64,000 nucleotides of DNA, from assembly GCA_016191115.1 (NCBI GenBank), contig JACPPG010000023.1, forward strand, positions 195,062-259,061, read 5' to 3'. A program made the position numbers and the translations under genes. Below the pieces are notes generated by a model. The model ran no database searches and was not told the origin of the DNA. It worked only from the letters and a program-made list of their open reading frames with translations. Source of the stretch: Planctomycetia bacterium. GTDB lineage: Bacteria; Planctomycetota; Planctomycetia; Pirellulales; JACPPG01. Positions 1,753-48,570 of the stretch are shown here, in pieces (the first letter of the stretch is position 1; every line of letters begins with the position of its first letter).

Positions 1753-3093
1753 TTGGGGATTAGGATCGTCGCGCCGGCACGCCCGTCCAACGTCCGCTGG
1801 CAGATCTTCGGTCTGTCGTGCGCCGCCTCTTGGATGCTCTATCTGCATCGCTACGCGTTCGCGCTGGTGATGCCGAGCCTGGCCACGGAGTGGAACGTCG
1901 AGAAGACCGAGCTGGGCTTCATGCAGTCGGCGTTTTACGCCACGTACCTGGCGTTCCAGATACCGACGGGGCTGGTGGCGGATTGGTTGGGCACGCACGT
2001 ATTCTTGGCCGGGATCATTTTCCTCTGGTCGGCCGTGCTCGGTCTGCACGCCTGGGCGCCCGATCAACAGGCGATGTACGGCGTTCGCCTGGCGTTCGGC
2101 GCGGCACAGGCCGGCTGCTACCCGGCCTTGGGAAAGGTGACGCAGGCCTGGTTCCCGCTGTCGATCCGCACGTCGCTGCAAGGGTGGATCGCCTCGTTCT
2201 TCGGCCGGCTGGGCGGATGTACGGCGTACCTGCTGTTTGGGGCGCTGGCGCTGGGCGCGCTGGCGATCGACTGGCGCACGGCCGTGACGGTTCTGGCGGC
2301 CGCGGGCGTCGTGCTCGCCGTGGCGGTGTTGGTCGTGTTCCGCAACGCGCCGGGAGAGCATCCGCGCGTGAGCGCGGCCGAATTGGCGCTCATCGCCGAG
2401 GGGCAGCCGCCTCGCGTCGCTGAGGGTAACCCGCCGCAAAGCGAAATGTTTCAAGGGGCTGAGCCCGCGTGGTGGCAAGCCATCACGCCACGTTCGGCCG
2501 TCAATCTTCTGTTTTTTCTGCTTCAGTACTTCGCCGCCACGTTCGCCGACGTCGTCTACGTCGCCTGGCTGCCGTACTTCCTCAGCGAGCAGAACGTCGG
2601 CATGGTGCGGATGGGCCTGTATTCGTCGCTGCCGCTGGCTGGCGGCGCGCTGGGGGGCATGGTGGCCGGGTACTTGAACGATCTGGCCATTCGCGCCATC
2701 GGCCGTCGTTGGGGACGCTCGCTCGTGGCTTCCGCGGGAAACGTGGCCGCCGCCGCGATGATCGCCCTCGGGCTGCGATTTTACGACGTGCCCAGCGTGT
2801 TCTGCTGTTTTCTGTTTGCCGCGAAATTCTTCTTCGATTGGGGGCAGCCCACGGTGTGGGGAACGATCACCGACATCTCCGGCCGGCACACGGCGACGAT
2901 CTTCGGCCTGGCCAACGGCGTCGGCGGCCTGGGTGCGCTCGTGGCCCCGCCGGTGATCGCCATCGTGGCCCAGCGCTACTCCTGGAGTCACGCCTTCTGG
3001 ATGATCGCGGCGACGTACCTGGCTTGCGGGATCTTCTGGCTGGCCGTCAACTGCACGATCCCGGTGCTGAGCACGCGGGAAGCAACCGCGTAG
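1753..3093 (+). CDS. MFS transporter, ACS/OPA-like
   Basis: 446 aa from a TTG start at 1753; an ATG 27 codons further in is the alternative. About 12 hydrophobic segments are visible, and the QIPTGLVADWLGTH loop between TM2 and TM3 resembles the MFS signature (D-x3-G). Similarity by eye is closest to anion:cation symporters or organophosphate:Pi antiporters, whose substrates are sugar acids and phosphorylated sugars. It follows the Tat oxidoreductase by 19 bp, so co-transcription is likely and the transporter may import the product of that enzyme. One arm of the GTAGGGTGCG repeat follows the stop. Confidence 0.85.
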   Translation: MGIRIVAPARPSNVRWQIFGLSCAASWMLYLHRYAFALVMPSLATEWNVEKTELGFMQSAFYATYLAFQIPTGLVADWLGTHVFLAGIIFLWSAVLGLHAWAPDQQAMYGVRLAFGAAQAGCYPALGKVTQAWFPLSIRTSLQGWIASFFGRLGGCTAYLLFGALALGALAIDWRTAVTVLAAAGVVLAVAVLVVFRNAPGEHPRVSAAELALIAEGQPPRVAEGNPPQSEMFQGAEPAWWQAITPRSAVNLLFFLLQYFAATFADVVYVAWLPYFLSEQNVGMVRMGLYSSLPLAGGALGGMVAGYLNDLAIRAIGRRWGRSLVASAGNVAAAAMIALGLRFYDVPSVFCCFLFAAKFFFDWGQPTVWGTITDISGRHTATIFGLANGVGGLGALVAPPVIAIVAQRYSWSHAFWMIAATYLACGIFWLAVNCTIPVLSTREATA

Positions 3094-3139
3094 GGTGCGC
3101 TGTGCGCACCATGTTCCTTACGCGCCGTGCGATGAGCGC

Positions 3140-3178
3140 AAAAAAGCGAGGGGAGCCGATGCGATTTCGGCTCCCCTC
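3140..3178 (-). terminator. Rho-independent terminator after the PEP-CTERM gene
   Basis: On the minus strand a 12-bp stem (GAGGGGAGCCGA paired with TCGGCTCCCCTC, arms 3167-3178 and 3148-3159) has a 7-nt loop. After CGC it is followed by a run of six T (A-run 3140-3145 on the plus strand). It lies just past the stop codon of the PEP-CTERM gene. A near-identical hairpin lies at 4305-4328 beside the truncated copy. Confidence 0.8.
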
Positions 3179-3202
3179 TTTGCGTTTGGGACACAACTCG
3201 GT

Positions 3203-4090
3203 CTAGGCCGTTCGGCGGCGCCAGGCGGCTAGCCCAAGTCCCATCGCGCCCAAGGCCGCGAGCACGACGCTCGATGGCTCGGGAATCGATAGCACGGTCG
3301 CCGAAATGTCCAGGAAGTGGCCGTCCGCCGCCTGGTTTCGGCTGTTGGGGCCAGGGTAGTCGTCGGCCGACGCACCGCCGAGTGGGCCGTTGGCGCCCAG
3401 CCGGACTGCCGATTCGTCGCCACCCGCGACGTTTTGCGGGCTGGAGGCCGAAGTCGACCACGTGAATCGGACGGTGAACGAAGTGGGACCGCTGAACGGG
3501 CCCAGCGTTAACGAGTTGTTGGCGTTGATCGCGTTGTCGAGCGTGCCGCTCGTGCCGTCCGCCGAGGCGTTCGTGGAAAGGCCAAGACTTGGATTGCCGA
3601 CGGCGTTGAGCAGTCCGGTTACGTTGGACACGGTCTCGGTTCCGCCGCTACTGGCGCCGATGCCTGAGTCGTCGACCGCTGTGAGCCAGCCGCGCAGCAG
3701 GGTGTCGATCTTGACGGTATACGTCGTAAGAGCAAACAGCGGCGTCACGCTGAAATTCACGGTGTAGTCGGAATTGATCTGCGCCTTGGCCGTGCCACCA
3801 CTGACGGCAACGGCGCGATCGGCTGCGGCGTTGCTAACGTATCGCGACGCCCCGGTCGCGACAGCGGCGACAAAATCAGTGCCGGTATTGGTCCCGCTGT
3901 TTGTGACACTGAGAGAGTTGGCTTGCGCTCGGTCGCCCGAGCCGCCGCCAGTGAGCGACGTCGTCGTGTTATTCGTCGCTGAAGTGACCGAGATGGCAAT
4001 CGCTTTCGCGGATTGCGGCGAAAGAAAACCAAGAAGTGCTGCCGCCATCGCCGCGGCGGGCAGAAGAATCACAAATTTGTTCCGAGTCAT
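3203..4090 (-). CDS. PEP-CTERM sorting-domain protein
   Basis: 295 aa. An N-terminal signal peptide (about residues 1-30, ending SAKA) precedes a Thr/Ser/Asn-rich beta-type body with no recognised catalytic motif. The C-terminus reads IPEPSSVVLAALGAMGLGL followed by AAWRRRTA. That is a PEP motif, a transmembrane helix and a basic tail, the PEP-CTERM signal processed by exosortase during export of extracellular-matrix or surface proteins. The gene stands alone on the minus strand with its own terminator. It is visibly less GC-rich than its neighbours. The function of the mature protein is unknown. A truncated paralogue lies just upstream (4373-4541). Confidence 0.88.
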   Translation of the reverse strand: MTRNKFVILLPAAAMAAALLGFLSPQSAKAIAISVTSATNNTTTSLTGGGSGDRAQANSLSVTNSGTNTGTDFVAAVATGASRYVSNAAADRAVAVSGGTAKAQINSDYTVNFSVTPLFALTTYTVKIDTLLRGWLTAVDDSGIGASSGGTETVSNVTGLLNAVGNPSLGLSTNASADGTSGTLDNAINANNSLTLGPFSGPTSFTVRFTWSTSASSPQNVAGGDESAVRLGANGPLGGASADDYPGPNSRNQAADGHFLDISATVLSIPEPSSVVLAALGAMGLGLAAWRRRTA

Positions 4091-16762: not shown

Positions 16763-16919
16763 CAGGGCCATTCTGTTTTTCAAAATGGCAAGGCGGGAAA
16801 ATGGGACTGGCTCCGAGCATAAACAGCGCAAGTCCTTTCAGACCAACGTTGCGTCTCGGTGCCTGTCCCACTTTCCCGCCGGTGCGCCGCCGTCCAACTT
16901 GAATCTGTGAACGGCCCTG
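16763..16919. repeat. 157-bp dispersed palindromic element, copy 1
   Basis: The outer ends are CAGGGCC...GGCCCTG. Inside, two 26-bp arms (GGCGGGAAAATGGGACTGGC... and its near complement, 3 mismatches) flank a 37-bp asymmetric loop at 16818-16854. Copies 2-5 are at 27216-27372, 32168-32307, 39298-39453 and 48428-48570. It fills most of the 318-bp gap between the nucleotidyltransferase-like and hydrolase genes. Confidence 0.92.
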
Positions 16920-27126: not shown

Positions 27127-27215
27127 TTCCCAAACTCCTTCAAATAGTTTGACTTCAGACCGCCCGCCACGCGAAGCATAAACGATAACCGATCCGAGGG
27201 CGGGCCGCAATCAGG

Positions 27216-27372
27216 CAGGGCCGTTCACAGATTCAAGCTTGCCGGCGGCGCACCGGCGGGAAAGTGGGACAGGCACCGAGCATAAACAGCGCAAGTCCTT
27301 TCAGACCAACGTTGCGTCTCGGAGCCAGTCCCATTTTCCCGCCTCGCCATTTTGAAAAACAGAATGGCCCTG
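27216..27372. repeat. 157-bp dispersed palindromic element, copy 2 (central segment inverted)
   Basis: The outer flanks and 26-bp arms are the reverse complement of copy 1, but the 37-bp centre (27281-27317, CATAAACAGCGCAAGTCCTT...) reads in the same direction as copy 1. The centre has therefore flipped relative to the arms. It fills much of the 350-bp gap between the oxidoreductase and hemolysin III genes. Confidence 0.92.
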
Positions 27373-27476
27373 CGCAATCAGGCTAGAGGCGAGAGGCTAC
27401 AGGCCAGAGGCAAAATATTTCCAAGAGGCGGGTTAGCCGCCGCGGCCACCCGGCGCGAGCCTCCGGCCCGCGCTCC

Positions 27477-32167: not shown

Positions 32168-32307
32168 GCGCCATTCTGTTTTTCAAAATGGCGAGGCGGG
32201 AAAATGGGACTGGCTCCGAGCATAAACAGCGCAAGTCCTTTCAGACCAACGTTGCGTCTCGGTGCCTGTCCCACTTTCCCGCCGGTGCGCCGCCGGCAAG
32301 CTTGAAC
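32168..32307. repeat. Dispersed palindromic element, copy 3 (end-truncated)
   Basis: It has the same orientation as copy 1 for flanks, arms and centre. It lacks the terminal GGCCCTG, the homology ending at about 32307 after AAGCTTGAA. It lies in the divergent region between the esterase-like and penicillin-acylase genes, close to both promoters. Confidence 0.9.
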
Positions 32308-39297: not shown

Positions 39298-39453
39298 CAG
39301 GGCCGTTCACAGATTCAAGCTGGACGGCGGCGCGCCGGCGGGAAAGTGGGACAGGCACCGAGACGAAACGTTGGTCTGAAAGGGCTTGCGCTGTTTATGC
39401 TCGGAGCCAGTCCCATTTCCCGCCTCGCCATTTTGAAAAACAGAACGGCCGTG
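39298..39453. repeat. Dispersed palindromic element, copy 4
   Basis: It is the full reverse complement of copy 1 including the centre, with some substitutions and one base fewer. It lies beside the truncated 5' end of the PIN pseudogene, with about 52 bp between them. The remaining 50 bp to the M16 peptidase stop holds a short GGGCAGCATGCCCGCC palindrome. Confidence 0.92.
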
Positions 39454-48427: not shown

Positions 48428-48570
48428 CAGGGCCGTTCACAGGTTCAAGCTTGCCGGCGGCGCACCGGCGGGAAAGTGGGACAGGCACCGAGACGCAACG
48501 TTGGTCTGAAAGGACTTGCGCTGTTTATGCTCGGAGCCAGTCCCATTTTCCCGCCTCGCCATTTTGAAAA
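48428..48570. repeat. Dispersed palindromic element, copy 5
   Basis: It has the same orientation as copy 4, centre not flipped. The distal end is cut at TTTTGAAAA, where another repeat family starts at 48571. Together the two repeats fill the 414-bp gap upstream of the small membrane protein. Confidence 0.92.

Follow-up and report, generated by a model that had tools for sequence, protein, structure and literature searches.

One inverted hairpin loop among about 423 copies of an ISAs1-type MITE in a planctomycete species, probably the product of a single copying error

Why does one copy of a short repeated element carry its centre the wrong way round when its sister copies do not, and is the inversion the trace of a genetic switch or of an accident? 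The question arises in a planctomycete genome, in a stretch of 64,000 nucleotides that was analysed as a whole and is called the window here, in which a sequence-only reading had described five palindromic copies and found the reversed centre of the second compatible with recombination between its arms or with a hairpin-processing enzyme. All five copies were found at the positions given for them (Table 1), and re-oriented alignment bears out that the 37-bp centre is reversed in copy 2 only, with flanks and arms unchanged.

Read in the common orientation of the element, copies 1, 3, 4 and 5 continue from arm A into a centre starting ACGCAACG or ACGAAACG; copy 2 alone of the five continues from arm A into CATAAACAGC. 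Arm A of normal copies ends in ACAGGCACCGAG, followed by a centre of the type ACGCAACGTTGGTCTGAAAGGACTTGCGCTGTTTATG and then by the complement of arm B ending in ACTGGCTCCGAG. In copy 2 the order is arm A, the reverse complement of the usual centre and the complement of arm B, the arms and outer flanks being in their usual places, and its centre is identical in sequence to that of copies 1 and 3 as these stand on the plus strand. Copies 1 and 3 only seem reversed, because the whole element lies on the minus strand, and copies 3 and 5 are shorter because each is without one end. The arms of copy 2, 26 nt each, 88% complementary and spaced by 37 nt, form an inner hairpin far above chance (z -7.4 for the DNA fold, -5.7 to -10.5 for four RNA folds). 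Arms A and B differ at three positions, which leaves exact runs of 9, 6, 3 and 5 bp from the outside to the inside. As the distinguishing A and B bases of copy 2 are on their usual sides, the inverted stretch reaches at most into the inner 5 bp of each arm and measures 37 to 47 bp, so that in this assembly its edges lie inside CCGAG and CTCGG, at 27276-27322 at most.

Table 1. Copies of the element in the window and the parts of the copy with the inverted centre
Feature	Position	Strand	
MITE copy 1, complete, normal centre, 10-bp duplication ATTCGGCCGC (plus strand)	16763..16919	-	
MITE copy 2, complete, inverted centre	27216..27372	+	
Copy 2, left target-site duplication CGCAATCAGG	27206..27215	+	
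Copy 2, left terminal inverted repeat CAGGGCCGTTC	27216..27226	+	
Copy 2, arm A of the inner hairpin, GGCGGGAAAGTGGGACAGGCACCGAG	27255..27280	+	
Copy 2, 37-bp centre, inverted versus all other copies read	27281..27317	-	
Copy 2, arm B of the inner hairpin, GGCGGGAAAATGGGACTGGCTCCGAG on the minus strand	27318..27343	-	
Copy 2, right terminal inverted repeat CAGGGCCATTC (minus-strand reading)	27362..27372	-	
Copy 2, right target-site duplication CGCAATCAGG	27373..27382	+	
MITE copy 3, one end missing, normal centre	32168..32307	-	
MITE copy 4, complete, normal centre, 10-bp duplication CCTGCCGCGT	39298..39453	+	
MITE copy 5, right end missing, normal centre	48428..48570	+	

How often the centre is turned was read from the host assembly (6.03 Mb, 93 contigs, 94% complete). 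A 27-base pattern for the left junction, with at most 3 mismatches allowed, found 423 matches, about evenly divided between the two orientations (209 and 214), and the reversed-pattern control found 0; copy 2 is the only exact match and none differs by one mismatch among the best 100 of 423 listed, although the unlisted matches may include a flipped copy whose 27-nt junction differs at two or more further positions. The right junction gave 417 matches (control 0), one of them exact, again copy 2, and two at one mismatch (L290, L291), both of which are normal copies in full reading with A changed to T at arm position 17. This change brings the hairpin stem closer to perfect pairing and is in no excess over other changes. 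Full reading of 154 distinct copies found 153 to be normal, 149 scored at once and four, with an indel or a substitution, by eye, and one to be flipped, which is copy 2. A count blind to the centre, by arms A and B in 0.757 Mb of the organism's own DNA, resulted in 95 hairpins, of which 93 are normal, one is copy 2 and one (L309) has a dissimilar centre. The flip is thus present in about 1 of 423 copies of this assembly, and no second flipped copy was found. Counting both orientations genome-wide had been proposed in the sequence-only reading, for which a sole flip would point to an assembly artefact or a one-off event, and a sole flip is the outcome. Several contigs end inside MITE copies (C4:74-100, C11:71-97, C15:73-99, C26:23-49), and the count of copies is therefore probably an underestimate.

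A sole flip in a 93-contig draft, with contigs ending inside element copies, might also be confined to the assembly or to a chimeric molecule that arose upon amplification. Such an artefact is unlikely. Exact inverted matches between the arms do not exceed 9 bp and amount to a mere 5 bp beside the centre, so that a k-mer assembly should have no path to the flip; moreover, copy 2 retains its own flanks and a perfect duplication.

Judged by its ends and duplications, the element of about 157 bp is a MITE of the ISAs1 type. Its terminal inverted repeats read CAGGGCCRTTC, i.e. CAGGGCC(G/A)TTC, and among 151 fully flanked copies of this assembly 102 possess both ends, 26 the left only, 20 the right only and 3 neither, 49 of 151 being without one or both ends. 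The one-ended copies 3 and 5 of the window fit this wider pattern, in which 46 of the 151 copies read have a single recognisable end, and one-sided loss of ends is suggested to be frequent among the copies. Target-site duplications of 10 bp flank the two-ended copies; of the 102, 43 have a perfect one and 65 one within a single mismatch, versus 0.37 perfect and 0.58 within one mismatch when left and right flanks of different copies were re-paired at random. Lengths from 7 to 12 other than 10 gave at most 5 perfect duplications, and 37 of the 102 copies are without a 10-bp duplication within one mismatch; in the window, copies 1, 2 and 4 each have one of their own, that of copy 2 being perfect. 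ISAs1 elements have 14-22 bp ends starting with CAGGG and a 10-bp duplication, according to the excerpted text of one account (PMC11946415). The 10-bp duplications together with the CAGGG ends therefore constitute the signature of ISAs1-family transposition, and an ISAs1-type DDE transposase acting in trans would have driven the spread of the MITE. The earlier suggestion of a mobile element thus gains firm ground from ends, duplications and copy number. The MITE is new and very abundant in one planctomycete species; an ISAs1-type MITE may nevertheless already be in print.

An autonomous ISAs1 partner with MITE-like ends was found neither in the own genome nor at the ISAs1 loci of relatives. 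Scoring of 29 ISAs1-domain (PF13808) loci of relatives by a script pairing CAGGG with CCCTG resulted in CAGGGC-type ends with a perfect 10-bp duplication at five (L083, L084, L089, L091 and L105, with L084 and L105 from one genome) and in no such combination at the remaining 24. The relatives' end closest to that of the MITE, CAGGGCTATTCGCTTATTCAAG in L102, is without a matching 10-bp duplication. The single PF13808 match of the own genome runs off a contig end; about 140 bp beyond this cut-off match an ISAs1-like end, CAGGGCGATTGCGCC, was recognised by eye, which has CAGGGC but hardly anything else in common with the MITE. Elsewhere in the genome two MITE copies stand in direct tandem (L289, about 350-690; G000:C86:54850-55156) with about 10 bp between them, a spacer that resembles the flanking sequence, as if one copy had integrated at an end of its neighbour.

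With respect to age, the element was searched for in 57 genomes, the own one, four of the same genus and 52 of the same order, with at most 14 first-look candidates scored per genome. Matches occur in three, the own genome, G020 and G024, and in the latter two they comprise the inner hairpin only; neither the four sister genomes, searched for the MITE, nor plasmids, searched for relatives of the element, gave a match. As only the own genome possesses the full element, the MITE family is young and restricted to this species in the present sample. The neighbours of copy 2, a GFO/IDH/MocA oxidoreductase gene and a gene for a haemolysin-III-like membrane protein, were both matched in all four sisters and lie on one contig in G001, G002 and G004, about 0.4, 0.5 and 1.7 kb apart. 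Those of the sister loci that were fetched show no trace of the MITE, and as the intergenic DNA does not align, an exact empty site is not demonstrable. Copy 2 itself looks recent, given its perfect duplication and a centre that copies 1 and 3 match exactly.

The hairpin inside the MITE has a wider distribution. The motif GGGACAGGCACC-N-GGAGCCAGTCCC was found in 8 of 145 other genomes sampled of the order, at loci which, where shown, are without MITE ends, and a scan of named genomes recovered at least 116 hairpin stretches, many from a few MAGs and 115 of them planctomycete. The arms differ in the same manner across Planctomycetota, CAGGCAC versus CTGGCTC, and GGC/GCC is thereby enclosed by two A.A mismatches. 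Outside this core, the eight stem pairs of 131 distinct hairpins reach 86% Watson-Crick pairing (63% to 94% for individual pairs), versus 63.5% (highest 66.3%) when the right halves were re-dealt. The stem thus covaries, although the 86% does not translate into a probability, as the sequences are related. The loop between the conserved 12-mers spans 38-44 nt, with two loops at 29 nt, and loops are, by eye, often unrelated among copies of one genome. The inner hairpin is accordingly older than the MITE and would have been captured inside it. A possible survivor of the captured hairpin is the one with the dissimilar centre mentioned above (L309 at about 18600; G000:C83, about 58600), which combines near-MITE arms with a different centre of 35 nt and no MITE ends.

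The own genome harbours a second hairpin family, GGGGTCAGGCACATTTTTCGGC...GCCGAAAAATGAGCCAGACCCC, with the same A/B asymmetry of the arms and a different stem, mostly within one conserved flank, CTGGGAGAGGG ... CGGACTTTGC; it occurs among the stretches L292-L326 and in L288, and its two arm motifs are absent from the window. In the 0.757 Mb of own DNA, the unfiltered arm types amount to 113 A/B, 3 A/A and 3 B/B (2 in the reversed control). A rough filter against MITE copies left 25 A/B hairpins versus 1 A/A and 3 B/B, and inspection of the 25 by eye assigned 20 to the second family and 4 to MITE copies missed by the filter, L309 being the last. Rfam has no match in the window at gathering scores and only four sub-threshold matches around copy 2 (E 1.1 to 5.6), and a described RNA family for the hairpin was rejected on the lack of a match above threshold. 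A literature search with four 12-letter hairpin strings retrieved no related description as judged by titles and abstract openings; the excerpted text of PMC3733652 contains neither GGGAC nor Rhodopirellula.

Standalone hairpins of other planctomycetes allow the orientation of centres to be compared outside the MITE. Among 135 distinct standalone centres, i.e. 9045 pairs, an identity of 75% or more is reached by 355 pairs in direct orientation versus 0 reversed; at 70% the counts are 421 versus 1 and at 65%, at the onset of chance, 578 versus 18. This absence of reversed pairs and the single flip among about 423 own copies argue against a recurrent switch, and recurrent inversion was rejected on the genome-wide and standalone counts together. 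On the same figures, the invertible element considered in the sequence-only reading, or a phase-variable one, is not supported. A recombinase-family match was not found among nine window ORFs scanned near the copies.

The REP/RAYT type, the other mobile class put forward at the outset, fares no better. REP/RAYT movement proceeds by single-strand Y1 chemistry and is not known to leave a target duplication. The 10-bp duplications led to rejection of such an origin for the MITE, and its CAGGG ends speak against it as well. The own genome possesses three Y1 transposase genes, and the proposed check for a Y1 gene close to the element found MITE arms within 1.5 kb of none of the three. In eight hairpin-bearing relatives, 30 of 50 Y1 matches were examined, with no exact arm and two arms at one mismatch. 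In three hairpin-rich genomes, 30 of 33 Y1 matches were examined, with hairpins at one (L336, identical to L261) and a lone arm motif at one (L338). The L261 locus carries a RAYT gene at 2490-3206 with hairpins at 312, 1815, 3351 and 3791, on both sides of the gene, and in L287, a stretch fetched for the closeness of hairpin and Y1 gene, the two are 174 bp apart. The RAYT-like genes of these two loci are possible partners of the hairpin, too little for a link. A REP/RAYT origin of the inner hairpin was found unsupported, with few Y1 loci bearing hairpins.

These observations bear on an enzyme, be it of the Y1/RAYT type, relaxase-like or a site-specific recombinase, which would act on the hairpin and turn its loop, making the element invertible. 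The strong conserved hairpin with its fixed arm asymmetry, the three Y1 genes of the genome and the relatives' Y1 genes at L261 and L287 would suit such an activity, but the flip affects 1 of about 423 copies, similar centre pairs elsewhere are exclusively direct, Y1 loci are seldom near arms and the target duplications indicate a DDE transposase, which together render it highly improbable. Of the earlier proposal, an inversion of the centre between its arms is supported, while the sole flip and the DDE-type duplications speak against the hairpin-processing enzyme. A related reading concerns the hairpins as a Planctomycetota-wide class, undescribed in Rfam and in the literature searched by letters. 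An enzyme with hairpin recognition would spread them, the arm asymmetry would let a protein distinguish the strands, and the flip of copy 2 would be a rare product of loop cutting and rejoining. This reading is unlikely.

Alternatively, copy 2 could have paired via its arms with one of the about 210 copies in opposite orientation and have taken over the centre of that copy by ectopic gene conversion. Donors would be at hand, as copies 1 and 3 have plus-strand centres identical to that of copy 2, copy 3 is only 5 kb away and the two orientations are nearly equal in number, but pairing would extend over only 26 bp with 3 mismatches, the conversion tract must end within 5 bp at both sides, and a second such event is missing among the about 423 copies. 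Exact runs as short as those between the arms are short for homologous recombination. Gene conversion is thus unlikely, if the least so of the alternatives.

The reading that probably accounts for these data is that of an ISAs1-type MITE which spread to about 423 copies in one species, probably of the Pirellulales, by transposase provided in trans, had captured a planctomycete hairpin as its core, and had its loop inverted once, in copy 2, by a copying error. The stable hairpin, the edges at a 5-bp microhomology and the exact copy of the loop make a single microinversion the simplest account. Such an error, made while the DNA was replicated or a break repaired and not long before or after the insertion of copy 2, would have taken the nascent strand off its template at CCGAG, the microhomology at the inner arm end, through the loop in reverse and back at CTCGG. 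The route would be template switching or microhomology-mediated break-induced replication. In PMC8755829, as excerpted, short imperfect repeats are held to fit simple template switching poorly, and microhomology-mediated break-induced replication is preferred.

Frequent quasi-palindrome correction between the arms was considered and rejected, as there is no excess of such changes and no position was changed in both arms of one copy. At the three positions at which the arms differ (891 sites), two of seven changes are to the base of the other arm, which is chance level, and the stem changes of 146 copies affect arm A only in 27 cases, arm B only in 36 and both arms in 0. The lack of an excess of arm-to-arm correction argues against a high rate of template switching here. 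Cumulatively, the flip looks like an ordinary kind of event, a rare copying accident rather than a genetic switch, and provides a clean bacterial case of a hairpin-loop microinversion, with hundreds of sister copies as internal reference for its frequency. More interesting than the flip is the conserved asymmetric hairpin family with its covarying stems and no known partner, which raises the question of what it is that reads a pair of A.A (or T.T) mismatches flanking GGC/GCC.

Compared with known systems, the element shares with ISAs1-family MITEs the CAGGG ends, the 10-bp duplication, the high copy number and a length, 157 bp, too short for a transposase gene, but differs in that its core is an unrelated planctomycete hairpin and in that no autonomous copy with matching ends was found in the own genome. 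With REP and REPIN sequences and their RAYT it has in common palindromes by the hundred, built of two arms and a loop, whereas the 10-bp target duplications, the CAGGG ends and the lack of a consistent RAYT neighbour set the MITE apart. Invertons likewise present a segment flanked by inverted repeats in the other orientation, but here 1 of about 423 copies is flipped and the orientation of the centre is constant in the other hairpins compared. In hairpin-loop microinversions a short loop is inverted exactly between inverted repeats, and the inversion stops where the repeats end on the inside, as it does in copy 2. According to the excerpted sources, such inversions are widespread in plastomes (PMC6824564), and 59 human/chimpanzee microinversions are all flanked by inverted repeats, with the edges within -5 to +4 nt of the inner repeat ends save two exceptions (PMC8755829). 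The human/chimpanzee cases, in the same excerpt, measure 17-33 nt versus 37-47 bp here, where the inversion resides in a bacterial MITE with several hundred unflipped sisters.
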